A DNA stretch of 64,000 nucleotides from Candidatus Izemoplasma sp. (GTDB lineage Bacteria > Bacillota_I > Bacilli_A > Izemoplasmatales > Izemoplasmataceae), in the NCBI GenBank assembly GCA_036172455.1, contig JAXKVY010000004.1, positions 1-64,000 of the forward strand, read 5' to 3'. The notes under the pieces are model-generated. The model did no database searches, was not told where the DNA came from, and worked only from the letters and a program-made list of their open reading frames with translations. Below, piece by piece: positions 7,587-51,998 of this stretch. Positions within the stretch are counted from its first letter, which is position 1. Every line of letters begins with the position of its first letter. A program made the translations under genes and the position numbers.

Positions 7587-8530
7587 TTAAGATACATCCA
7601 TTAGAACCATTAATAACATTATATTGTGACAATCTTGATATTAAGAAAAACAGCATCAGGAGTTATAAGGCCTTGCTAGATCGATATGTCTATTACCTAA
7701 AACGACATAATATTCAGTTTGCTAAACGTTCAGACATCATCGATTATAGAGAACACATGTGGGAAGAAGGTTTACGGGCGAATACGATTCAAAAACAAAT
7801 TGTCGTGATTCGTAATTTCTATCAATGGTTAAAGTTAAATCAACGACAATTTGCCTTAGATGATATCTATCAATTTAATATCGCAGAGAAAATCAAAGGC
7901 GCAAAGATTGATCACAACTATAAAAAAGAACCATTAAACAAAGAACAGGCCATCAAACTCATTGAAGTGGCGAAGCAACAACGAACCGATATTACGGGGT
8001 ACCGTAATTTCGCAATCATCTTGTTAATGATTATCACAGGCGTACGATCAATTGAAGTTGTTCGGGCAAAAAAGGCAGATGTCTCAAGATTGTTTAAGTA
8101 TTCGATTCTTTATGTCCACGGAAAAGGAAAAGATGGGGCAGATACTTTTGTAAAATTATCGAACGAAGTGACGGATGCGATCAATGATTATTTACACAAA
8201 AGAACAGATAATGCTAGGTATTTATTTGTTACGCATGGCGATACATCAAGTTGCCAACAGTTGTCATCAAATACTTTAAGAAGAGCAATTACGAGGTTAA
8301 TGAAACATGCTGGGATTTATGACAAGAAGCATACCCCACATTCATTGCGACACACGACGGCATATCTTAACTTACAGTCGGGTGGATCGTTAGAATCCAC
8401 CCAACAGTTACTAAGGCATAAAAATATTGAGACAACGTTAATTTATGCGCATAACATTAACCGGATGAATGATGATTCAGAATTTCGAATCAATGATTAT
8501 TTATTTCGTGACGAGGAGGAAACGACATGA
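7583..8530 (+). CDS. Tyrosine recombinase (phage/ICE integrase type)
   Basis: The 315-residue protein has an N-terminal SAM-like core-binding domain (about 5-95) and a C-terminal catalytic domain with all expected residues: Arg in ITGVRSIEV, Lys in VHGKGKDG, HSLRH (H-x-x-R), His in LLRHKN and Tyr in TTLIYAH. It carries out strand exchange at attachment sites. It overlaps the preceding XRE gene and the following excisionase gene by ATGA. It is a different recombinase class from the two serine recombinases nearby, so at least two mobile elements are stacked here. Confidence 0.9.
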   Translation: MIKIHPLEPLITLYCDNLDIKKNSIRSYKALLDRYVYYLKRHNIQFAKRSDIIDYREHMWEEGLRANTIQKQIVVIRNFYQWLKLNQRQFALDDIYQFNIAEKIKGAKIDHNYKKEPLNKEQAIKLIEVAKQQRTDITGYRNFAIILLMIITGVRSIEVVRAKKADVSRLFKYSILYVHGKGKDGADTFVKLSNEVTDAINDYLHKRTDNARYLFVTHGDTSSCQQLSSNTLRRAITRLMKHAGIYDKKHTPHSLRHTTAYLNLQSGGSLESTQQLLRHKNIETTLIYAHNINRMNDDSEFRINDYLFRDEEETT

Positions 8531-8733
8531 TTAAAGAAGATATTACCCATTATACAGTTAAAGAAGTAGCCAGTTATTTGCGGGTCACACCACGAACCAT
8601 TTACAACTATATTTACATTGGGAAATTACGGGGAATTAAAGTCGCTGGTAAATGGCGATTCTCAAAAAAGCATATTGATGATTTTTTAAAGAAGCTAGCA
8701 GAAGTGGAGTATCCGCGTTATGTCAAAAAGTAG
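8527..8733 (+). CDS. Excisionase-family DNA-binding protein (MerR-like HTH)
   Basis: The 68-residue protein consists of a helix-turn-helix of the excisionase/HTH_17 type: YTVKEVASYLRVTPRTIYNY followed by GKLRGIKVAGKWRFSKKHID. Such proteins bend DNA at attachment sites and steer the integrase towards excision. It is coupled to the integrase by an ATGA overlap and overlaps the next gene by 14 bases. Confidence 0.85.
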   Translation: MIKEDITHYTVKEVASYLRVTPRTIYNYIYIGKLRGIKVAGKWRFSKKHIDDFLKKLAEVEYPRYVKK

Positions 8734-9517
8734 TGCAGGATTAGATTTCTTTAATCTCGATGTCAATCTCTTTAGCGATGCCAAAATTATCAAATTGATG
8801 CATCGCTATGGACCGATTGGGTTTATGTGTTATTTACTAACGCTAACCAATGTATATATGAATGGATATTATTTAGAAGCATCTATTAATGATTTAGCGT
8901 ATGTGTTATTAAACGGCATTGGCGGGAAATACATCAATGGTAAAAATAAGTTACAAGAAATTATTTTGTATTTAGGCTATATTGATTTAATTGATCAAGA
9001 CTTATTATCACAGGGAATTATAACATCAAGAGGGATTCAAAAACGGTTTTTAATTGCGACAAAAAGTCGCAAGAATCAAGCCTATGATAAATATTGGTTA
9101 TTAGAACATCCAACCCAACCAGGTGAAATTCTAAAAGAGGTAAAGAAAGAGCAACAGTCTAAGCCAAAGAAAACGAAGAAACAAAAAATCTTTGAACGAA
9201 AGAAAAAAGATATTCTAGAACACGCACCGAAGAAACATTATCTTACGAGTTGTCTTATTGAATACCGCTATATCAACGAATATTCACTTGATATCTACAA
9301 ATATAATGAACTATTTGAAGACTTATTAACGAGTTATGATGGTGATTTACTCTATCAAGCAGTGCGTTATTTATGTAATTATGCATCAAGACCTGCAACA
9401 AAAATTGATGATCGATATAAGTTCTTTGAATCTTCGATTACCAAAAACTTATCACGCTTAACCAATGAGGATTCTAATACATCGATTGAATCATGGTTTA
9501 AGTCCTTGATAGGATAG
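8720..9517 (+). CDS. DUF4373 (Lin1244/Lin1753-type) phage replication-like protein
   Basis: The 265-residue protein opens with LDFFNLDVNLFSDAKIIKL and YGPIGFMCYLLTLTNVYMNG, the hallmark of the Lin1244/Lin1753 N-terminal (DUF4373) domain found in phage and plasmid replication-associated proteins. A very Lys-rich linker (about 145-165) precedes a helical C-terminal part. It overlaps the excisionase gene by 14 bases and is the last gene of the operon. A role in element replication is inferred from family context only. Confidence 0.75.
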   Translation: MSKSSAGLDFFNLDVNLFSDAKIIKLMHRYGPIGFMCYLLTLTNVYMNGYYLEASINDLAYVLLNGIGGKYINGKNKLQEIILYLGYIDLIDQDLLSQGIITSRGIQKRFLIATKSRKNQAYDKYWLLEHPTQPGEILKEVKKEQQSKPKKTKKQKIFERKKKDILEHAPKKHYLTSCLIEYRYINEYSLDIYKYNELFEDLLTSYDGDLLYQAVRYLCNYASRPATKIDDRYKFFESSITKNLSRLTNEDSNTSIESWFKSLIG

Positions 9518-33166: not shown

Positions 33167-33212
33167 ATAAGTGATTGGTGTAGGGGATAACTTGAAGATA
33201 CAACATAACATA

Positions 33213-33244
33213 AATAAGCACCTGATAGGTGCTTATTTTTTTAT
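33213..33244 (+). terminator. Intrinsic terminator inside the leader of the lipoprotein gene
   Basis: ATAAGCACCT-GAT-AGGTGCTTAT is a perfect 10-bp stem followed by TTTTTTTAT. It lies between the promoter and the start codon of the same gene, so full-length mRNA needs read-through or antitermination. Confidence 0.8.
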
Positions 33245-33269
33245 AAAAGATTATTATAGGAGGCAATGT

Positions 33270-35756
33270 ATGCGCACATTATTTAAGGGATTCATTATCG
33301 TTTTATTGGCATTGATATTAGTGGGGTGTAGTGAAGACACGGCATCCAATGACAATATTAATACCCAGATTTATAGCATTTATGAAATAGCTCTAGAAGC
33401 AGACACTTCAGATATGACTTATGAAGAATGGCTTAAGACAGTTAAAGGACCTCAAGGGGAAGATGGGCGAGAGGTATCTTTACGTGTAGATGATGGAGCG
33501 ATTCAGTGGCGATATGTCGGCGATGATCGCTGGATAAATTTAGTCAAACTGACGACACTGACTGGAAGTGACGGAAAATCCGTAGTATTTCAAGTCGCAA
33601 ATGACCATATTCAATGGCAGTACGTTGGTGATGACACTTGGACAAATCTTATCGCCTTAGATACATTAACTGGTAATGATGGTAAGAATGTAGAATTACA
33701 TGTAACAGAGGGGTTTATTCAGTGGAAACATACAGGCGATGACGTTTGGATGAATTTAGTCGACCTCACGACATTGACCGGCGAAGATGGTCGTGAAGTA
33801 TCATTTCGGGTTGACGGGGGAATGATTCAATGGCAATACATTGGTAATAAAACCTGGAGAAATCTTATTGCTTTAGAAACATTAACTGGTAATGATGGTA
33901 AGAATGTAGAATTACAAGTAACAGAAGGATTTATTCAGTGGAAACATACTGGCGATGACGTTTGGATGAATTTAGTCGACCTCACGACATTGACAGGTAA
34001 AGATGGTCGCGAAGTGTCTTTTCGTGTTGATGAGGGAGCGATTCAATGGCAATATGTTGGTGATGACACCTGGACAAATCTCATAACCTTAGAAACATTA
34101 ACTGGTAATGATGGTAAGAATGTAGAATTACAAGTAACAGAAGGATTTATTCAGTGGAAACATACAGGTGATGATACCTGGATGAATTTAGTCGACCTCA
34201 AAACACTGACAGGTAAAGATGGTCGCGAAGTGTCTTTTCGTGTTGACGAGGGAGCGATTCAATGGCAATATGTTGGTGATGACACCTGGACAAATCTTAT
34301 TGCCTTAGATACATTGACAGGTGAAGATGCTAAAGACGTTACCTTTCAAGTAACTGATAATACCATTCAGTGGCAATACATTGGTGATAACACATGGACT
34401 GATTTAATTGACTTAAATAATGTTATTGATGTATCTGGGATTGAGTCAAGTATCACAGCCTTAGAAGATCGGGTTACGCAGTTAGAATCAGACTTAGAAA
34501 GTAGTGATTTGCAAGAACAATTATCTACCACTATAGATACAGTAACAAGTTCGGTTGTGGGTGTAAAAACCTATCAAAGTGATGAATATGTTGCGCTAGG
34601 TAGTGGTGTAATTTATAAGCAAATAGAAGATACATATTATGTCATAACCAACTATCATGTTGTTGAATCAGGTGATAATTTTAAAGTATACCTTCATGAT
34701 AATTCAGAAAAATCAGCAACATTAGTAGGCTATGATTATTACAGCGATTTAGCAGTACTAACCTTTACGACAACAAATACCTATACAACATCATCCTTAG
34801 GAGATAGCAACTTACTTATGCCTGGTGATTTTGTGTTTGCGATGGGATCACCGTTAGGATTGGCAAATTACAATTCAGTGACATTTGGAATTATTTCAGG
34901 AACCAATCGGTTACTTCCATCTTATTTAGACGATACCTATTATGGAGAATTATTCATTCAACACGATGCGGCGATTAATCCAGGAAATAGTGGTGGACCA
35001 CTATTTGACTTAGAGGGTAATGTGATAGGCATTAACAGCCGAAAATATGTTGGTGACTATGTGGATACGATGGGATATTCAATACCATCTAATGCCGTAA
35101 GTAATGTCATTAGCGTAATTGAAACGGGTGAATTTTATAAACATGCAGGGAATTGGTATGAAACCATGATTAGTGTCAACTATGTCAGAAATAATCCATC
35201 ACTTTACCCTGAAATCACGATTCCCGACACGGTTATTAATGGTGTTTATGTCGATACACCAGATCCTGATGGTATCTTTGGCCTTGCCGGTATGCAAGAT
35301 GGTGATATTATTTTAGCGATTAATGATACATTAGTAAACTTCTGGTATGAAGTTAAACACCAGATTTATTACCAAAATTTACCTACCGATAATATTACTT
35401 TTACCGTACATCGAAATGGTAGTGTTGTTGAATTAACATATAACCCAACGACTTACACCTATGGTTATTATTGGTATGAAGTTATTACATTTAGTAATAG
35501 GGATATGTATTATGGTGAGATGTATGATTACTACATGCATGGAGATGGTGCCTATTACTTTAGTGATGAAGACTATTATATTGGAGAGTTTTCGTTCGAC
35601 GAACCAAATGGATTTGGTACGTATTATTGGCCGAATGGGGATTACTTTGAGGCAGATTGGATAGATTGGGATAATACAACAAATGGTATATATTATTATG
35701 CCGATGGTACCACTGAAAATAAGAATCTTCAGAACGGGTATTGGGTGTATTATTAA
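33270..35756 (+). CDS. Repeat-rich surface lipoprotein with HtrA-like protease, PDZ and MORN repeats
   Basis: ATG 33270 after AGGAGG gives an 828-residue protein. Residues 1-20 are a lipoprotein signal peptide (lipobox LVGC, Cys20). After EEWLKTVKGPQGEDG come nine tandem 36-residue units (residues 66-389) of the form GxxVxxxVxxGxIQWxYxGDD, then TW-x-NL and LTG-x-D. A short coiled coil (about 390-425) leads to a trypsin-like protease domain with the full triad: His in VITNYHVVESG, Asp in YYSDLAVLTF and Ser in INPGNSGGPLF. A PDZ-like domain (GMQDGDIILAINDTLV) and C-terminal MORN repeats (MHGDGAYYF, YYIGEFSFDEPNGFGTYYW) complete it. It should act on the outer face of the membrane in protein quality control or surface processing. 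The combination is unusual. The repeat tract may change length by recombination. Confidence 0.88.
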   Translation: MRTLFKGFIIVLLALILVGCSEDTASNDNINTQIYSIYEIALEADTSDMTYEEWLKTVKGPQGEDGREVSLRVDDGAIQWRYVGDDRWINLVKLTTLTGSDGKSVVFQVANDHIQWQYVGDDTWTNLIALDTLTGNDGKNVELHVTEGFIQWKHTGDDVWMNLVDLTTLTGEDGREVSFRVDGGMIQWQYIGNKTWRNLIALETLTGNDGKNVELQVTEGFIQWKHTGDDVWMNLVDLTTLTGKDGREVSFRVDEGAIQWQYVGDDTWTNLITLETLTGNDGKNVELQVTEGFIQWKHTGDDTWMNLVDLKTLTGKDGREVSFRVDEGAIQWQYVGDDTWTNLIALDTLTGEDAKDVTFQVTDNTIQWQYIGDNTWTDLIDLNNVIDVSGIESSITALEDRVTQLESDLESSDLQEQLSTTIDTVTSSVVGVKTYQSDEYVALGSGVIYKQIEDTYYVITNYHVVESGDNFKVYLHDNSEKSATLVGYDYYSDLAVLTFTTTNTYTTSSLGDSNLLMPGDFVFAMGSPLGLANYNSVTFGIISGTNRLLPSYLDDTYYGELFIQHDAAINPGNSGGPLFDLEGNVIGINSRKYVGDYVDTMGYSIPSNAVSNVISVIETGEFYKHAGNWYETMISVNYVRNNPSLYPEITIPDTVINGVYVDTPDPDGIFGLAGMQDGDIILAINDTLVNFWYEVKHQIYYQNLPTDNITFTVHRNGSVVELTYNPTTYTYGYYWYEVITFSNRDMYYGEMYDYYMHGDGAYYFSDEDYYIGEFSFDEPNGFGTYYWPNGDYFEADWIDWDNTTNGIYYYADGTTENKNLQNGYWVYY
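33465..34436 (+). repeat. Tandem repeat: nine 108-bp (36-aa) units
   Basis: The units lie in frame within the lipoprotein gene. Units 3 to 8 form a higher-order repeat of about 216 bp (two types alternate: GKNVELQVTEGFIQWKHTGD and GREVSFRVDEGAIQWQYVGD), nearly identical in DNA between copies 5-6 and 7-8. Units 1, 2 and 9 are more diverged, as expected for the edges of an expanding array. Confidence 0.9.
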
Positions 35757-36158: not shown

Positions 36159-36201
36159 CTTTTCAATTGCTATAGTGCCTAATTTTAAATTACCATAAAC
36201 A
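36159..36201. repeat. 43-bp direct repeat, left copy
   Basis: The sequence from CTTTTCAATTGC to TACCATAAACA recurs at 37365-37407 with a single mismatch (A/G at the seventh base). The copies flank the IS256-type remnant. On the minus strand this copy starts TGTTTATGG and leads into the istA remnant, so it may be an IS21-type left end. Confidence 0.85.
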
Positions 36202-37365
36202 TTCACCTTGAAAATGCTATTAATGAACTTCTAAGAACAGAATTAAGTGGCTTTTTATAGGATGGTAAGTATGATCGCACTGGATTTAACACAGGCAATA
36301 GTCGTAATCGAACCTATGAACATACCATTAAGAGTGAGCTTGGGGAGTTGACACTTAACATTCCTTGTGATCGTAACAGTGAGTTCAAGAACCAAACGTT
36401 AGAGCCATATCAACGCCATGACGACACCTTAGAATCTACAGTCATTCATTTATACCGTAAAGGCATGACCACAAGTGATATCGGCGATTTAATTAAAATG
36501 TACGGTCATCACTATTCAAGAAAAACTGTATCAAACTTAATACAAGTAATGGAATTCCATGTGAAAGCCTATCATGAAAGACCGCTAAATAAGCGTTACA
36601 CAGTCGTTTACCTAGATGCGACCGATTTACCCATTCGTAGGGATACCGTAGAGCGTGATCCGATCTATCTCGTAGTAGGTATTACAATAGAAGGCTATAA
36701 AGAACTCTTAGCCTACAATATTCACCTGACTGAATCTGCGTATAACTGGAAAAACATTACTTGAAGATCTTAAGTCACGTGGCGTCACAGATGGGCTTAA
36801 AAAAATTAAGACAACAATTGAAATAGTTTATCCAAAAGCTGCGTATCAATCGTGTTGGGTACATATCGCACGTAATATGAGCCATAAAGTACGTACAAAA
36901 GATCGAATGGTTGTCTTAGATGACTTAAAACGCGTGTATCGTTCAAAGATTAAGGCAGACGTGAAACAAGCACTTGAGGAGTTTTCCAGTAATAGGAAGA
37001 AAACTTATCCTACAATGGGTAGACATATACGATCAAAGGAGAGTCTTTTCTCGTTTAATCACTTTCCAGAAGTAATCAGACCAAGTCTTTATACAGCAAA
37101 TCTCATTGAAGCATTTAATAAACAACTTAAGCGATTTACTAAGCGTAAAGAGCAATTCCCAAATGTCAACTCACTTGAACGCTTCTTAGTGACCTATGCG
37201 ATGGATTACAATGAACGATTTAAGAACCGAATCCATAAAGGATTCAATAAAGCTCAATACGAAATTGAACAACTCTTTAATGAGATGCATCATAGCTAAT
37301 AATAAGTAGATCTCTTGACTTACATATTGAGTTGATTCTATTTACACAAAATTCTTGACACTACC
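36202..37365 (+). mobile_element. Degenerate IS256-family element
   Basis: The transposase is recognisable in two frames. The first part has TGNSRNRTYEHTIKSELGEL, NIPCDRNSEFKNQTLEPYQR and VVYLDATDLPIRRDTVERDP; the second has YPKAAYQSCWVHIARNMSHK and FPEVIRPSLYTANLIEAFNK. Defects are a missing N-terminus, an in-frame TAG upstream of DGKYDRTGF, a one-base gain in the A-run at 36750-36754 and a small deletion before TDGLKKI. The right terminal repeat TTTACACAAAATTCTTGACA (from 37341) is IS256-like; the left end is absent. The element is dead. Confidence 0.85.
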
Positions 37366-37407
37366 TTTTCAGTTGCTATAGTGCCTAATTTTAAATTACC
37401 ATAAACA
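37365..37407. repeat. 43-bp direct repeat, right copy
   Basis: It matches 36159-36201 in 42 of 43 bases and follows directly on the right end of the IS256-type remnant. It is far longer than the 8-9 bp target duplication of IS256 elements. Confidence 0.85.
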
Positions 37408-37598
37408 CATATGGTGAATCATCGATGGAGATAATGTTAAATCTTTTTAACTTGCTTTATTCATACAGTTTTTTACCAAGCTAACGTGACTCATTTTAAT
37501 TCATTCATCGGTTGACGCTGACAAATGGGTCGTATATGGCCTTTTATTAACTTGATAAATATGTCATAATTGGGAATGATGATGAGAGGGTGTTATAA

Positions 37599-38404
37599 AT
37601 GGAAAGTTCAATTGATATTATTGTAGCCTTTATTGCAGGTGTTTTTACTGTAGTTGTAGCAACAAGTAATAATAATAGCAAATATATTACTGGAGAAAGA
37701 ACTGGGTGGAGAAAATATGTGCGAGAATGGATTTCTGATATAGCAAGATTAAGTGAAACAATACCTGATATATCGAATTTTGATTATTGCTGTTCATTAA
37801 GCAAAAATATAAGAGTATTGTTGGAGGAGAAAAAATACGGATTAACATCAAAGTTAAATCCGATAAGAGATAAAGAGTTAATAAATAGTATAAAGGCAAT
37901 TACATATAGTGATTTATATACATTTCGTTCTATAGGTCAAGGGAAGATTAGTGATATAATTGATAACCTTGAGAAATTACTAAAACATGATTGGGAGAGA
38001 GTCAAAAAAAATAAAAGTTTTCTGGGAAAGTATTATCTAACTAATATAGTAATTTTAACTACCGTATTTTGTTTTCTGATGAAAACGTATAAATATTTTT
38101 CTCCAACTAAGATAATTTTTGATTCAAATATGATTATCAGTTTGGCATTAATTATTCTAGGGAAATTCATTGTTATAGAAATAGAAAAAATTGTTATAAT
38201 AAGAATTAAAGCAACTTTTAATCTTTTTAGTAGTTTTAACCTCGCCTTAGACTTCCATCATTAATCGAAGTTACTACATTAGTTATTGTTATAACCTTAA
38301 ACTTATTAACGTTCAAATTTGAGATATATCTAATCTGGTTAATAATAACATTCTCTTTACTTTGTGTTGGATTGTTCTTGAAATTTAAGGAAGAACTAAA
38401 ATGA
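37599..38404 (+). pseudogene. Membrane protein upstream of AbiH, C-terminus frameshifted
   Basis: The intact frame gives 221 residues (stop at 38264): an N-terminal membrane helix (IIVAFIAGVFTVVVATS), a motif ITGERTGWRKYVREWISDIA, a helical cytoplasmic middle and two more membrane helices (YYLTNIVILTTVFCFLMKTY, MIISLALIILGKFIVIEIE). From 38238 the next frame is open and hydrophobic (LVIVITLNLLTFKFEIYLIW, LIITFSLLCVGLFLKFKEEL) and ends in a TGA that overlaps the AbiH start as ATGA. The original product was therefore probably about 267 residues, with a one-base change near 38238-38262. The ATGA coupling suggests joint function with AbiH. I do not know the family. The break could be genuine or a sequence error. 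Confidence 0.65.
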
Positions 38405-39483
38405 TAGTGGTTTTAGGGAACGGCTTTGATTTACAATGTGGGTTGAAAACTACATATAAAGATTTTTTTGAAAATAGATATAAAGATATGGCATTTAAAA
38501 AATTAAATAAAATACTGGAAAATAATGAATTATTTAATTTGAGAAAATACTTTGATGAGTATGATAAGAGTATATTTAGTGTAATAACATTCTGGGATCT
38601 AGTTTTTATGTACGAAAATATTTTGAAAAGAAATGATGGATGGAGTTATATTGAAGAGATTATCTCTAAATATCTAAGTGAGAATTTAGTGACTATTAAT
38701 AGTATTAGAAATTATAAAGAATCGAACAAACTTAATTATTTAATAAGTTTATTAGGATATTTGTTTGAAAGTAAGGAAATGTCGTTTACACCTCTAGCAT
38801 TTAATCAATGGCTTTTAAAGCAACTAAACTTACTAGAAGCTGATTTCGCTACTTACGTTAGAAAAGAAGTTGAATCTAATGAGATGTATCCTATAAAAGC
38901 GGATGGTCTTTTCACAAGACTAATTAGCAATTATCAAGATTCCAGAACAGCAAATACAATAATTAATTTTAACTATACAAAACCCACTTTTTTGATAAAT
39001 TTAAGAAATCTTGGTAAATCTAAACTGTCTAACATTACAAATGTGCATGGGACCATAGACGATAAAGTTATCTTTGGAATAGATGAAAAAGATATTTCAA
39101 AAACAGGCCAATACATTAAACCAAGTGAGTCCAAATACCTCTTTACTAAAACTGCTAGAAAGTTTAATAATTTTGAAAGAGAAAGCAAGTTCAGATTACC
39201 CTCAAAAATTAAGACCATTGTTGTTTATGGGCACTCCTTAAACGAGCAAGATTATTCATATTTCCAGAGTATTTTTGACACATATGATATTTATACGAGT
39301 AAGATCAAGTTGGTTTTTGCTTATTCTAATTATGATAAAAAGAAAAAAATAAAAACAAAGTTAATAGAGAGAACAATAAAACTTTTAAAAGAATATGGTA
39401 AGACTATGGCCAATCCTGATCATGGTAATAATTTATTGCATAAGCTATTGTTGGAGAATAGGTTAATTGTTAAAGAGGTTTAA
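38401..39483 (+). CDS. abiH: AbiH-family abortive infection protein
   Basis: The 360-residue protein has the AbiH signature: IVVLGNGFDLQCGLKTTYKD at the start, ANTIINFNYTKPTFL, NVHGTIDDKVIFGID and VVYGHSLNEQDYSYFQSIFD near residue 280. These blocks resemble the nucleotide-binding pockets of SIR2-like proteins (NFNYT, HG, GHSLN-x2-D). AbiH was first described as a phage-resistance protein of Lactococcus; its mechanism is not settled. Here it is coupled to a membrane protein gene by an ATGA overlap and lies beside IS remnants, which fits a mobile defence locus. No terminator is clear after it. Confidence 0.85.
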   Translation: MIVVLGNGFDLQCGLKTTYKDFFENRYKDMAFKKLNKILENNELFNLRKYFDEYDKSIFSVITFWDLVFMYENILKRNDGWSYIEEIISKYLSENLVTINSIRNYKESNKLNYLISLLGYLFESKEMSFTPLAFNQWLLKQLNLLEADFATYVRKEVESNEMYPIKADGLFTRLISNYQDSRTANTIINFNYTKPTFLINLRNLGKSKLSNITNVHGTIDDKVIFGIDEKDISKTGQYIKPSESKYLFTKTARKFNNFERESKFRLPSKIKTIVVYGHSLNEQDYSYFQSIFDTYDIYTSKIKLVFAYSNYDKKKKIKTKLIERTIKLLKEYGKTMANPDHGNNLLHKLLLENRLIVKEV

Positions 39484-39570
39484 ATTTCTTGATTATGATA
39501 CACTCTTTACTAGTTTTTTTTACCAAATAATTGTATAATGTTACTAACATATTCTCTGAGGAGGAATACT

Positions 39571-40659
39571 ATGAATGTTGCATTATTAGGTTTAGGTGTT
39601 GTTGGTAAAGGTGTCTATGATATCTTAACGGAGTTACATCCAGATATTAACATATCCTATGTGTTAGATAGAAATGAAGACTTGATAAAAGATCTTGATA
39701 CAAAACGAGCTAAAAACATCGATGAAATTGTAAATGATAGAGATGTTGATGTCGTGATAGAGTTAATTGGGGGTAAAACGTCAGCCTATGACTTTATTAA
39801 ACAATCTTTACAAAAAGGCAAACATGTCGTCACAGCTAACAAAGCTGTCATCAGTGATTACTTTGATGAGTTACATCAAATTGCTAAACGCCAACAAGTA
39901 TCCTTGCGATATGAAGCCAGTGTTGGTGGTGGGATTATTATTTTAAACCCATTAAGTCAATTACGTAATGTCAATCCTGTCACAGAAATCTCTGGTATTA
40001 TTAATGGATCAACAAACTTTATTCTTTCAAAAATCTTTTTAGAAGATTATACTTATGAAGATGCCTACGCAGAAGCGTTATCACTAGGCTATATTGAAAC
40101 AGGCTCTACAGATGACATGGATGGGCTTGATTTAATGCGTAAAATCAATATCTTATCAATGATGTCATATGGTCAGTTAATCGATGAAAAAGATATTAAC
40201 TTAGTGCCTTTATCAATGATCTCTAAAAAGATGATTGATTATGTCAAAGAACAAGGAAAAACCATAAAGTATACTGCCTTTTCATCATTGAAAGATGGGG
40301 ATATCACAATATCACTTGAACCAGTCATTATGGAACTAACTGATCCATTAGGGATGATTAACTATGAAGAGAATGCCATTACCATTAAAGGCAAACATCA
40401 TAAGTTCCAAACTTTTATAGGCCTTGGCGCAGGACGGTACCCAACAGGGAGTGCTGTTGTCTATGATTTACTGCAGCTACAGAATCATATACCATTTAAT
40501 GTGAGCGCAACGGATTTAGGATATACAATTAATCAAAAACCGGTTCAAACACAATATCTCATTGAGACTAAAGATGGTTTTCATATAAAAGAAAAGACCA
40601 CCTTAAAAGCATTATTAGAAGATGATACAATTATATCCTTTGCGGGTCTTGAATGGTAA
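39571..40659 (+). CDS. hom: Homoserine dehydrogenase
   Basis: ATG 39571 follows GAGGAGG; an upstream in-frame start at 39538 overlaps the probable promoter. The 362-residue protein has MNVALLGLGVVGKGVYDIL (NAD(P) binding), GKHVVTANKAVISDYFDELH, YEASVGGGIIILNPLSQLRN and SGIINGSTNFILSKI with the substrate-binding region. It reduces aspartate semialdehyde to homoserine for Thr/Met synthesis. There is no C-terminal ACT domain, so it is a short, probably feedback-insensitive form. No other threonine or methionine genes are nearby. Confidence 0.9.
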   Translation: MNVALLGLGVVGKGVYDILTELHPDINISYVLDRNEDLIKDLDTKRAKNIDEIVNDRDVDVVIELIGGKTSAYDFIKQSLQKGKHVVTANKAVISDYFDELHQIAKRQQVSLRYEASVGGGIIILNPLSQLRNVNPVTEISGIINGSTNFILSKIFLEDYTYEDAYAEALSLGYIETGSTDDMDGLDLMRKINILSMMSYGQLIDEKDINLVPLSMISKKMIDYVKEQGKTIKYTAFSSLKDGDITISLEPVIMELTDPLGMINYEENAITIKGKHHKFQTFIGLGAGRYPTGSAVVYDLLQLQNHIPFNVSATDLGYTINQKPVQTQYLIETKDGFHIKEKTTLKALLEDDTIISFAGLEW

Positions 40660-40801
40660 TACACAGTTTGTTTTTCCCTCTTTTGGAGGGTAAAATTATT
40701 AAGAAACCTCTCATAAAAACCTTTCTGTGAAAAACATGATTTTCATGATATAATACATCATAAGAAGTTATGGAGATAAGCTTAATACATAGAATATATA
40801 T

Positions 40802-40836
40802 AAGCGATTCCTGTAGCGGAATCGCTTCTTTTTATT
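40802..40836 (+). terminator. Intrinsic terminator inside the leader of the next lipoprotein gene
   Basis: AAGCGATTCC-TGTAGC-GGAATCGCTT is a perfect 10-bp stem, followed by CTTTTTATT. It lies downstream of the TATAAT at 40749-40754 and about 45 bases before the start codon at 40881, as in the leader at 33213. Confidence 0.8.
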
Positions 40837-40880
40837 GTGGTGAGTGCACCACGTATATATTAAATTTTGGGAGGATATAT

Positions 40881-42721
40881 ATGAAAAAAATATTTGTGCT
40901 CATGATAACGATGTTAATGGGATTAATCCTTGTGGGTGTGCTAGGTTGTTCCCTATATCGTCTGAGGACATCTTAGATGAACTACAGTCAATGAATACTG
41001 TCTTGGTGGAAATATCCATCAATGATAAAACCGAGGACTATCTTATTCAATGTGATGATTTTTGTATATGGGGGACATTAGAAGAAGACCATATAACAAA
41101 AATCAATACACCGTTTGATACCTATGTGTATGATGACCCCTCTTCTACTTGGGAAAAATCTGATAGTAGACATACCTATTACGGTTACTTACACTATCCA
41201 TTTGACGCATTTACCTATGATGAAGAGACTAAAACCTATCATGCAGAAGATGTCAATATGGGCAGTCAGTTTACTGAAGTCACGTTATCACTCAATGAGG
41301 ATCATGAGATTATTGATCAAAGAGTTAAAGACACCGGGTTAGCATTAACCCTTACGTATAAGGACTTAGATGCTGAGTTTGATGTTGATTTAAGTGGCGT
41401 GTGCCCAGATACATATCAAGATGGCATGTGTTATACAGATTATGAGACCTTTTTTGATTTTACCCCTGACTATACAAAAACGTTAACTGATTTAGATGAA
41501 GTTATAAATGATCTAAACGTAATTATGAGCTATTACGACACAACCCAATTTAGAACACTTAGTGAAGAATTTGTTGAGACTTATCAAAATCGGTTATATC
41601 CTGAAGATGTCTATCAAGAAGCAACATTTGATAAAACCTATAGTATTGAAAGCAGCTTATATAATGATATTTTTTCAGTTCTTTCATTAATTAATACAGA
41701 TAACATCGTACTCGGCCATAGTGGTCGTGTCATACAGGAATATGAACAAATTACGTGTTGTGAACAATACGGTGAGACAAAAGAAATGACACCATTTAAT
41801 GGTGACATCACTGTCTTTATCAATGAAAATACCTTATATGTTGATTATCAGCTATATGATGAAGATGAACTGTCTAAACGTGAAGTGTATCTGATGACCT
41901 ATGATGATAACACACTCACTTCTTTTCAATCATATCAGTTTGATAATGCACTTGATGATGTCATTTTAAGTAACCGTCTGAGTGTTATTGATTATCACCG
42001 GGGTGAAGAAGGAAGTATATTTACAACGTATAATTATTTGCGAGATACAGCCAGTATTAATTATACATCAATTGAAGAAAATGGCTCTTATACAACGTAT
42101 CATTATAGTCAACGTACCGATAATAATAAACGGTATATCCGTGTTGATCAAAGTGATGAATATTTTTATTTAGATTTTACTGATAATCGGTTTGATAATG
42201 ATATTTTATTAACCTATAAAGATGGTGTGTTTGTTGTCTCAAGACGTCGTATTTATGATAGAGTAACGAATGAATATTTAGCCGGCAATAACAATAACAT
42301 TGCCTATAATTTATTATACCTTGATGGGTGGGACTATGTCTCTTATGGAGATCTTTATAAAAATGATGCGAATCTCACATTCTCAAACCCAATCGGGATA
42401 TCTGTTGCCATCAGATCACCTTATTATAGTCAATATTTTACCAAAGATATGAATGGAGAAATCAGTCGTGCTACTTATGAAACGCCTTTATCAGGCGTGA
42501 CCTTTGATGAGGTCAGTTATAGTGATTTTCAAAGTGTGTGGCAGAGCGTCGAAACTCTGTCAGAGAATTTTACGGTGAATGGCGACATCGTTGTTATGGG
42601 AGACATGACTTATGATTTCAGTGAATACGGTAGTGTCATCTTAGAAGCCACTTATGATGGAGAAATCAGTCGCTTCTTCGATCAAGTATTTAGTCAATGT
42701 GATGACTGTATTGTTGACTAA
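40881..42721 (+). pseudogene. Large lipoprotein gene, frameshifted just after the lipobox
   Basis: ATG 40881 after GGGAGGATAT opens a perfect lipoprotein signal peptide, MKKIFVLMITMLMGLILVGV then LGC. That frame stops at 40974-40976. The remaining 580 or so residues (from about PISSEDILDEL, 40952) lie in the -1 frame and run to 42721. A single-base loss near TTCCC (40949-40953) explains both frames. The body is acidic, Tyr/Asp-rich and beta-rich with paired cysteines (ICCEQ-like, DCIVD end); I do not recognise a family. It is expected on the cell surface if the frame is restored. The frame could be closed by a sequence error or reversible slippage. Confidence 0.7.
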
Positions 42722-48252: not shown

Positions 48253-48323
48253 TTCACAAAATATTCAAACCATTCAAATTATGGTATAGTATACTTAGAG
48301 TAATGCGTTACAGGGGGAGACAC

Positions 48324-51300
48324 ATGGCACTAAAACAAGACAAATTATTATATGAACTCGATCAATTAAGAGACACGTTACATTACCGGTATCACTTAAA
48401 CACACCATCTGATATTTGTAAAGATGAAGCCTTAAGAGAGATCGCTGAAAAAAAGCCTTTAAAAGCATCGGATTTTCTTGCGATACCGGGGATTAATCAA
48501 ACATTTGTGGAAACCTACGCCACAGATTTTTTACGTGTATTAAAAACCTTTCATCACGCCTCTGTGAAAGAGCGTGCTTTAACAAAAAATGCTTATCAGG
48601 TGCTCGATCATTATAAAGATCGCTTAACCAATCTGAATCGGCGCAATAAAAATCTCTATATGGGAAGAACGACCAAACGTCATAGTTTAGATATGACGAC
48701 GCTCGTTGACCCAGATGAACTTACAGACTTTTTAGTAAATAATCGAAAAAAGATGATTGAATTACCAGTAAATGATGCATCGCTTTATCGCCACGTGACA
48801 ACCCTTTACCGTGAAGTCAACAAACAAGAAAAAGAGTTGGGTTCTTATGAACTCTATCTTGCCTATCCTTATATAGAAGGCATTTTTAAACAAGACAACT
48901 TTGCGATTCGCGCCCCGCTTGCTTATTTACCAGTTAAAATTACCCGACATAAAAAGACTTTTAAATTACGGAAAGATGAGACCAAAGACATTGTGTTAAA
49001 TCGGGATTTAATCTTAGCCACACAAAAATTCTTACAATCGGATGTAATCGACACCCCGCATATTAAAAAACTGGATAAAAAACATATCATAGACACCATC
49101 ATACCTTTTTTTGAAGCCTCTGGCCTCACCATTAAACGGCCTAAAATAGACCATACATTTGAGCCGTTTGACTCGGTTAGAAAAGATGATTTTAGACATC
49201 AACGTAAAGGGGTATTTCATCTAAAAGAAATGCTTGTCTTAGGACGGTTTAAACGCCACTCATCGATGATTCAAAAAGATATGGATTACATTTTAGATCA
49301 AAAAACATACAATGACTTATTAGAGGGGTTAATTGAAGAAGAACACTTATATGATATAGAAAAACGTATCCCTTATGATCATCAAAATATCACAGTAGAT
49401 GAATCAGAGTTAGCGTTTTTAAGTGAGGTAAACTATTCACAAGAACAAGTCATTCAAGCGTTAAACCATACAAACAAACTTGTCATCTGGGGACCACCAG
49501 GTACCGGGAAAAGTCAAACAATCACAAACCTTGTTGCGGCGCGATTGTTAAAAGGGGAAAATGTTTTAGTCGTGAGTGAAAAGAAAGTGGCACTAGATGT
49601 TATTTACTCACGCTTAAAATCACTGAGTGATTATACAATGTTTTTAGAAGACGCTGAAGATAAACAAACCTTTTATCATCAACTCAGTCAGTTTATCGAT
49701 CCTTCTCCCCCTATTCGAACGATTAGTAACGATATCGATACCTTAGAAGACGATATCAAAGAGACATTATCAAAACTAGATCAGGCCTTACAATTAGTGT
49801 ATAATACCAAACTTGATAATGTCCCCGTTCATAAGCTATATCACCGTTACATTATTGATCGCAAAATGAACATTGATTTAACCCCAAAAACCGTGTATAA
49901 CATCTTGCAAAAAGCATTTAAACATCCGACCGTGGCATTGTTTAAAAAACTCGAACGGTCCTTTAAACGCAATAAACGGTTAAGAGAACATATCGCATAT
50001 GATACAATCATTCAAACCTACGGAAATTTAAAAGGCTTTAACTTAAAACTTACCCGATCTGAACAAGTAGACTTCAAACAATTTCATCAAGCGTTTGACA
50101 AAGCAAGAAGAAAATATCAAGACGCTTGGGTATTTAAAGGCCGTGTTAAACGGCGGTTTATTCGTGAACATCGTGATAAACTAAACGTCTTTATTCCAAG
50201 TTGGTGGAAACGCAGACGCTATCTTAAACAGTTATTCAAAGATGATACGTTACAAGAATTTTTTATCACACACATTGGTAAATGGCATTTATTACAGAAG
50301 CATTATGAGGCGTTAGATCAAGAAATGAAACGCTTTGTCAGACTCTTGCATACACATGAGACATTTACACAATTTGAGGATATTGCCAGTCACCGTAAAT
50401 ACATCTTTGATGCTTTTTATACAGGTTTCTTAGAAGCCTTTGAAGCACAACATAGTGGCGTGATTGACATGATTGAACATGTCCATGACGCCCAACAAGA
50501 GTTAAAACGATCTCATCAAGATAAACAACAAATGGATTATGAAAGTGTCGCAGTTAAACTTTATGAAGACGCTCTACACTTAAGTCATTCAAAACGGATT
50601 ATGGACATTAAACGCCTGCTTGAAAGCAAACAAAAAATGAGTGTGCCAGCTTTTATCTCGCACTTTCAATTAGAAATCTTAAACCATATCAAAATCTGGC
50701 TAATGACCCCAGAAACCGTGAGTGCGATTTTACCACTCGTCTATGGCATGTTTGATACCGTTATTTTTGATGAAGCATCACAACTCTATGTTGAAAAAGG
50801 TATCCCAAGTATTTACCGGGCTAAAAAAGTCGTTATTGCTGGGGACACCAAACAGTTACGCCCATCGTCATTAGGGATGGGTCGTTTAGACGATTTAGAT
50901 GAGTTTTATGAAGAAGATAGTTTGACAGATCTTTCCCTTGATGCGAAAAGCTTACTTGATTTAGCCCGTTATAAATATCAAGAGATTATCTTAAATTATC
51001 ATTATCGATCTCGCTATGAAGAACTGATTGCCTTTTCAAATCATGCCTTTTATCAAGCCAATCTATTTGTGTCACCGAACAACGAAATCAGTGAGAAACC
51101 CCCAATTGAATATGTATATGTTAAAGACGCAATTTATGAAGACCGCCAAAATGACAAAGAAGCCAAAAAAGTGATCGCCTTAATCCGAAAAATCTTTCGG
51201 GAAAGAAAACACAATGAAAGCATTGGCGTCATTACCTTTAACAGTACCCAACGTGATTTAATCGAAAACTATATTGATGAAGAACTCTTTAAACGGGGGA

Positions 51301-51998
51301 AATACCGTAAACTCTTCGAAGAAGAACTCTACCGTGAAGAAGATGGGGAAGATCAAAGTTTATTCATTAAAAACATTGAAAATGTTCAGGGGGATGAACG
51401 CGATATCATCATCTTTAGTATGGGGTATGGGAAAGACACAGAGGGCAAAATCTATCGCCGCTTTGGTTGGTTAAACCAATCAGGTGGAGAAAACAGATTA
51501 AACGTTGCGATTACCCGAGCCAAACAAAAAATCTATTTTGTTTCCAGCTTAACCCCAGAAGAACTTAAAGTTGACGATTTAAACAGTACCGGACCAAAAC
51601 TGTTAAAAGATTATATGCGTTACTGTAATATGATTAGCCGTAACAACCATGACCAAGCGGAACAGTTACTGAATCAGCTCTATCAAAAAGATAGCGCTAA
51701 AGACCTCGCAGAAAGTGTATTAGTAGATGATATAGAAAAACGGTTATCGCGTACAGAAACGGTTCACACATCCATAGGGATTGGCCACTTTAAGATTGAT
51801 TTAGCGGTATATGATAACGACAATCAAACCTATAAACTCGCAATCTTATGTGATGTCACTAGTACGAATGCAAGAAAAGATCTCTATCATCAAACCAATT
51901 ACTTAGAAGCCAGAGGATGGCAAGTTTATCGTGTCTTTTCAAGTCAATATTTTAAAGACCCGAATAAAGTAATTAGAGAGATTCGTAAACAATTGTAA
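48324..51998 (+). CDS. HRDC / DUF4011-like / SF1 helicase with nuclease-like C-terminus
   Basis: ATG 48324 after GGGGGAGACAC gives 1224 residues. The order is an HRDC-like domain (about 5-80), a DUF4011-like region (RLTNLNRRNKNLYMGR near 105), and an SF1 helicase with Walker A VIWGPPGTGKSQT (about 389). A 425-residue insertion precedes motif II VIFDEASQLY (about 815); then come GDTKQLRPSSLG, NYHYRSRYEELIAFSNHAFY, ENVQGDERDIIIFS and GENRLNVAITRAKQ. The tail (about 1150-1224) is a Vsr/MTES_1575-like nuclease fold: FKIDLAVYDNDN, LAILCDVTSTN, ARGWQVYRVFSSQYF. In related proteins the middle block usually reads IECDG; here the Glu is Leu, so nuclease activity may be lost. Such helicase-nucleases have been linked to phage defence. 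Confidence 0.85.
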   Translation: MALKQDKLLYELDQLRDTLHYRYHLNTPSDICKDEALREIAEKKPLKASDFLAIPGINQTFVETYATDFLRVLKTFHHASVKERALTKNAYQVLDHYKDRLTNLNRRNKNLYMGRTTKRHSLDMTTLVDPDELTDFLVNNRKKMIELPVNDASLYRHVTTLYREVNKQEKELGSYELYLAYPYIEGIFKQDNFAIRAPLAYLPVKITRHKKTFKLRKDETKDIVLNRDLILATQKFLQSDVIDTPHIKKLDKKHIIDTIIPFFEASGLTIKRPKIDHTFEPFDSVRKDDFRHQRKGVFHLKEMLVLGRFKRHSSMIQKDMDYILDQKTYNDLLEGLIEEEHLYDIEKRIPYDHQNITVDESELAFLSEVNYSQEQVIQALNHTNKLVIWGPPGTGKSQTITNLVAARLLKGENVLVVSEKKVALDVIYSRLKSLSDYTMFLEDAEDKQTFYHQLSQFIDPSPPIRTISNDIDTLEDDIKETLSKLDQALQLVYNTKLDNVPVHKLYHRYIIDRKMNIDLTPKTVYNILQKAFKHPTVALFKKLERSFKRNKRLREHIAYDTIIQTYGNLKGFNLKLTRSEQVDFKQFHQAFDKARRKYQDAWVFKGRVKRRFIREHRDKLNVFIPSWWKRRRYLKQLFKDDTLQEFFITHIGKWHLLQKHYEALDQEMKRFVRLLHTHETFTQFEDIASHRKYIFDAFYTGFLEAFEAQHSGVIDMIEHVHDAQQELKRSHQDKQQMDYESVAVKLYEDALHLSHSKRIMDIKRLLESKQKMSVPAFISHFQLEILNHIKIWLMTPETVSAILPLVYGMFDTVIFDEASQLYVEKGIPSIYRAKKVVIAGDTKQLRPSSLGMGRLDDLDEFYEEDSLTDLSLDAKSLLDLARYKYQEIILNYHYRSRYEELIAFSNHAFYQANLFVSPNNEISEKPPIEYVYVKDAIYEDRQNDKEAKKVIALIRKIFRERKHNESIGVITFNSTQRDLIENYIDEELFKRGKYRKLFEEELYREEDGEDQSLFIKNIENVQGDERDIIIFSMGYGKDTEGKIYRRFGWLNQSGGENRLNVAITRAKQKIYFVSSLTPEELKVDDLNSTGPKLLKDYMRYCNMISRNNHDQAEQLLNQLYQKDSAKDLAESVLVDDIEKRLSRTETVHTSIGIGHFKIDLAVYDNDNQTYKLAILCDVTSTNARKDLYHQTNYLEARGWQVYRVFSSQYFKDPNKVIREIRKQL

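Follow-up and report, generated by a model that had tools for sequence, protein, structure and literature searches.

Here, we show by comparative sequence analysis and structure prediction that an AbiH gene in the genome of Candidatus Izemoplasma, a relative of wall-less bacteria, overlaps a membrane-protein gene directly upstream of it, that this pairing recurs in a second genus, that the two AbiH proteins so paired fall into different clades, that the AbiH structure model is SIR2-like, and that the membrane gene has lost its reading frame in the genome under study. We tentatively propose, with a confidence that stops a little short of even, that the pair represents an accessory and modular two-gene unit in which a SIR2-like AbiH effector would be joined to a membrane-bound sensor or tether, and whose membrane partner was broken recently in this genome. 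Coordinates refer to the window, the whole stretch of 64,000 nucleotides that was analysed.

On the + strand, the order of genes is a broken transposase, the membrane-protein ORF, AbiH and then a homoserine dehydrogenase gene (hom, 39538–40659). The Mutator/IS256-type transposase is split into two ORFs (36348–36764 and 36877–37299; PF00872, E 3e-36 and 1.8e-19), which form the boundary element upstream of the pair (36348–37299), and a 69% identical copy is present elsewhere in the genome. A 43-nt direct repeat (98% identical) is found on both sides of the transposase, at 36159–36201 and 37365–37407; the target duplication usual for the IS256-type family is far shorter than 43 nt. The membrane gene, recognized by its ORF, its hydropathy and its homologue in the HR2 genome, follows a ribosome-binding-site-like GAGAGGG (37584–37590, direct reading), starts at ATG 37599 and as it stands runs for 221 codons to a TAA at 38262–38264. 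Its C-terminal part lies in another frame (38240–38404) that ends with a TGA at 38402–38404, and this TGA overlaps the ATG of AbiH (38401–39483, 360 aa) as ATGA (38401–38404). The initial annotation had described the locus as lying among IS remnants and the AbiH ATG as overlapping the TGA of a multi-helix membrane protein, and both descriptions hold. A second ribosome-binding-site-like sequence, AAGGAAG (38387–38393, direct reading), sits inside the membrane-gene tail and 7 nt before the AbiH ATG, so that AbiH could be translated independently of the partner. Upstream of the pair there is one terminator-like site (37527–37542, 0.4 expected); promoter-like sites were no more frequent than in shuffled sequence (10 found, 17.7 expected), and no RNA gene in the window exceeded the threshold. 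The hom neighbour was rejected as a marker of the empty site, as the match in the genus is a different, fused gene. Elsewhere in the window, 33171–35756 encodes a lipoprotein-like trypsin-type protease that contains numerous internal repeats resembling one another (GREVSFRV..GAIQWQYVGDDTWTNL) as well as a MORN repeat at its C-terminus, and 48303–51998 encodes a 1231-aa helicase with strong PADLOC matches to PDC-S37 (E 5e-141) and Hhe (E 7.5e-77); in the related genome G080, an ORF whose N-terminus resembles this helicase directly follows another AbiH gene.

The AbiH reading frame is intact, and its assignment draws on profile, alignments, model and structural alignment with VIA-align. It matches PF14253 (E 4.9e-23, 83 bits against a curated cut-off of 30.9) and the PADLOC AbiH profile (E 2.1e-6), and it shares the GNGFD start motif with the AbiH abortive-infection gene of Lactococcus and Streptococcus. 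GNGFD (residues 6–10), FNY (190–192), H216, G277 and D284 are invariant in two alignments, of 13 and 20 sequences. A tblastn search with the window AbiH found no match in phage records. AbiH is regarded as a single-gene system. PMC12322248 treats it as a system in its own right, in contrast to the window, where a membrane gene overlaps it upstream; that paper lists the trigger and mechanism of AbiH among the unknowns and describes activity against Vansinderenvirus.

The best evidence against a chance coupling is an intact, overlapping pair in Candidatus Izimaplasma HR2 (JRFF01000036.1). Among 90 genomes of the order, seven carry AbiH (36 of 392 in the phylum) and two the membrane gene, namely the window genome and HR2. 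The HR2 membrane protein (253 aa) is encoded in one frame, is 43% identical to that of the window over query residues 4–210, and its gene ends in a TAATG overlap with a downstream AbiH that scores 143.3 bits on PF14253. Both known members of the membrane family thus overlap an AbiH start, in different genera, and because the HR2 version is intact we consider the coupling real and recurrent. The HR2 neighbourhood looks like a defence island, since a ThsB-like TIR gene followed by a PDC-M50A-type small-protein gene lies 1.4 kb after the pair (8115–9084 of the HR2 locus). A 313-aa gene upstream of the HR2 pair was considered as a third component; no trace of it is found upstream of the window pair, and it has no solid relative among the loci examined.

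The two AbiH proteins share only short motifs (20 and 25% identity in two alignments). In a tree of 46 of the 68 AbiH proteins surveyed, with fragments, near-copies and some others left out by choice, the window AbiH groups with that of locus L030 (100/99) inside a 27-row clade (100/99), and the HR2 AbiH sits in a separate 7-row clade (99/96). Only these groupings are used here, because the tree has long branches and its midpoint root serves for drawing. The partner label needs two changes on the tree, and the well-supported branches force two; no partner is seen in the remaining 26 rows of the clade that holds the window AbiH, one of which (L045) has its upstream side off the contig. As the two AbiH proteins lie in different well-supported clades, two kinds of AbiH have become linked to a single membrane family. 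That a rare gene should stand twice directly before AbiH, each time of a different clade, would be hard to explain without some link.

How widespread is this arrangement? Neighbourhoods were collected from 33 loci, 32 viral-contig loci and 9 class loci (6 of which repeat the first set), giving 68 distinct AbiH loci, some of them AbiH fragments. By layout and a profile search over all ORFs of 96 loci, the partner occurs in two, the window and HR2, and is absent from the other 66, although the AbiH genes of L045 and L048 start right where their contigs end, which leaves the upstream side out of view. The AbiH proteins nearest to that of the window (L030/L072, 45–46% identical) have no adjoining membrane gene, and a non-membrane gene lies 98 bp upstream. 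Four plasmid AbiH genes, hand-picked from 53 matching records, show no annotated gene overlapping AbiH upstream, in a gene table that is incomplete. Other membrane ORFs lie near AbiH, upstream in four loci (L010, L022, L034 and L055) and downstream in four (L012, L061, L068 and L076), and none of these matches the partner profile. In L022 (154–1411) and L009 (2638–3870, both in AbiH-strand coordinates), AbiH has as neighbours a cyclase-like gene and one for a small membrane protein, which we take to resemble a Pycsar pair. The gene-neighbourhood survey, proposed in the initial annotation as a check on its candidate two-gene defence system, therefore gives no support to a general two-gene AbiH system, whereas the pair itself stands, since a second genus holds an intact version of it in which the genes overlap and the AbiH is very different. 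Because most AbiH genes lack the partner, we regard it as an accessory and not as a requirement of the AbiH family.

The same counts give weight to the most serious alternative, that AbiH acts alone here as it does elsewhere. The membrane gene would then be a passenger, or an independent small gene carried by the same mobile segment, and AbiH would be unaffected when the frame of that gene is lost. Besides the 66 loci and the four annotated plasmid neighbourhoods that lack the partner, this would agree with the state of the window, in which the partner is broken and AbiH intact. However, a passenger is not expected to overlap an AbiH start twice, as both copies of this rare gene do in different genera and beside different AbiH clades, and we consider a solitary AbiH rather unlikely. 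The accessory two-gene unit is in turn weakened by the fact that only two pairs are known, both from one family.

Wider searches added little to the membrane family. No match was found in phages, plasmids or viral contigs, and a pattern scan of genome contigs recovered HR2 as the one relative. A draw of 392 genomes across the phylum, in which HR2 was not among the matches, returned the window and one 37-residue match (L005), which was judged false because the 233-aa ORF that contains it encodes another type of membrane protein. When the N-terminal half was searched against 296 genomes, the two known proteins were joined by two 162-aa proteins of similar layout (L099 and L100; E 0.0013 and 0.0026); neither of them has AbiH as a neighbour, and their kinship to the family is tentative. 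With these two added to the query, the same four proteins only were found in 326 genomes, in draws that overlap, and none in viral contigs. Plasmid searches yielded six records at E 8 only with the N-terminal half, taken as chance, and none with L099; a comparison of the membrane protein with PDB chains gave nothing credible.

By hydropathy, the membrane protein would comprise an N-terminal transmembrane helix, a charged region of ~110 residues and then further hydrophobic segments; this topology rests on hydropathy because the structure model (pLDDT 42.7) is too poor for use or for a structure search. The charged region holds the conserved stretch KLLKHDWERVKKNKS, the longest identical run shared with the HR2 homologue. 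The initial annotation had recovered the C-terminus only in a shifted frame, and a second frame is indeed open for 54 codons (38240–38401) up to the TGA and hydrophobic, with a GRAVY of 1.2; of 5000 base shuffles, 65 were as open, so this openness is unusual. This tail runs collinear with the C-terminal ~60 residues of the intact HR2 protein, at a score of 35 against 22.9 ± 6.6 that 117 of 2000 shuffles equalled, so that homology to the HR2 C-terminus, taken alone, is weak and suggestive. Since one frame stops at 38262–38264 and the other is open from 38240, the frame is lost somewhere between ~38,240 and ~38,261. We read the shifted C-terminus best as a broken gene. Programmed frameshifting was rejected, as direct reading of the stretch that has to contain the change of frame shows no standard −1 slippery heptamer, and the HR2 protein is encoded in a single frame.

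Is the break a mutation? We compared 1361 ORFs of the relative G080 with 462 kb of the window's genome and found one frame break among 271 conserved regions (14 of which lie in the window), in a gene of that same genome (14725–15397 of its locus) that is presumably radC-like. Sequencing indels are thus rare in this genome, and the break in the membrane gene is therefore more likely a mutation; the frameshift is probably real, and its best reading is a recent loss. A lipoprotein gene (40770–42721) is also split, with its signal peptide MKKIFVLMITMLMGLILVGVLGC in one frame and its mature part in another; its break at ~40,960 lies outside the regions of the 271-set test and is evidence that frame breaks of whatever origin do arise in this neighbourhood. 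A sequencing error, by which the window pair would be intact and normal, concerns the frame only and is compatible with any other reading. It could explain why both halves of the membrane gene are otherwise well preserved and why a second break lies ~2.7 kb away in the lipoprotein gene, but the rarity of frame breaks across the 462 kb and the lack of a long single-base run at the break site make it unlikely.

The window AbiH was modelled from 20 sequences with a pLDDT of 79.6 and a pTM of 0.83. Foldseek alone gave no match at E ≤ 0.001 and no SIR2 entry among the best 50. When VIA-align was applied to the Foldseek candidates, the best 13 rows were entries with SIR2 or SIR2-HerA proteins. The first row (Z 10.9, 232 residues aligned, rmsd 4.3) has a title that names HerA, and its chain G is presumably the SIR2 subunit; the second is PsSIR2 (Z 9.4), these values to be read against best Z scores of 7 to 8 that are common without kinship. 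Because the leading rows agree with each other (PsSIR2, SIR2-HerA, ThsA, KomBC and a human SIRT2 complex), we accept that the AbiH model resembles a SIR2 fold. N191 and H216, both invariant in the 13- and 20-sequence alignments, may correspond to the catalytic Asn and His of SIR2 enzymes. An earlier prediction (PMC3506569) already held that AbiH contains a Sir2-superfamily enzyme. The predicted fold is shared with the SIR2 antiphage effectors (SIR2-HerA, ThsA of Thoeris, KomC, SPARSA and Avs5), from which the window pair differs in having no HerA, TIR, Argonaute or STAND partner; against PDB chains, the AbiH sequence matched no SIR2 chain and sequence similarity to these effectors was not detectable.

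The fold also bears on which of the two proteins would act on the cell. Membrane effectors are common in defence, and the several hydrophobic helices at the partner C-terminus would suit a membrane-damaging effector of the RexB or Pycsar type with AbiH as its activating switch. However, a SIR2-like fold with an invariant Asn and His suits AbiH as the effector, the partner matched no membrane-effector family in Pfam, NCBIfam or PADLOC, and PMC12322248 counts AbiH as a system in its own right, which together render a membrane effector quite improbable. Least probable is a role of the membrane protein in holding AbiH in check, as an immunity protein or antitoxin would. The overlapping order with the partner first recalls many toxin-antitoxin pairs, yet most AbiH genes lack such a neighbour and AbiH is here intact, with its own ribosome-binding-site-like sequence, beside a partner that has lost its C-terminus (a truncated protein might still work).

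In the accessory unit that we favour, AbiH would be a soluble SIR2-fold enzyme and the effector, and once triggered it would probably consume NAD+ or a related nucleotide, stopping the infected cell. Its partner would have a single N-terminal helix, then a charged region in the cytoplasm and, at the C-terminus, several further helices, probably four. This membrane protein would hold AbiH at the inner membrane and may signal to it that a phage is entering or that the membrane is disturbed, in the way that KwaA serves KwaB. In Kiwa, according to PMC12904381, KwaA detects infection at the membrane and KwaB is the component that acts, and the pairing of a membrane sensor with an effector is an established arrangement. 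Kiwa likewise consists of two genes, for a membrane protein and a soluble partner (PMC12904381), but here the soluble partner is AbiH, and no Kwa profile matched either window protein (PADLOC at E ≤ 1 found AbiH only). A sensor or tether joined to a SIR2-like effector would fit the predicted fold, the overlap, the modular pairing and the Kiwa precedent. The unit would be modular, as the same membrane family stands before AbiH of two clades. Because the membrane gene lost its frame, apparently recently, and AbiH has its own ribosome-binding-site-like sequence, AbiH probably persists in this genome either on its own or as what is left of a failing system.

A bolder form of this proposal, possible though doubtful, is a conserved membrane platform that takes interchangeable SIR2-like AbiH effectors, in which the sensor gene stays and the effector is swapped. 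Such membrane-gated AbiH defence is not described in the literature searched. Among the matches listed, mostly open-access and without preprints, no title or abstract opening reports a membrane partner of AbiH, and the accessible parts of PMC11514479 and PMC9503650 contain nothing on one.

A rare lineage in which AbiH of two types is joined to a membrane protein provides a natural means of asking where AbiH detects infection, and the SIR2-like model makes the consumption of NAD+ by AbiH a concrete and testable idea.
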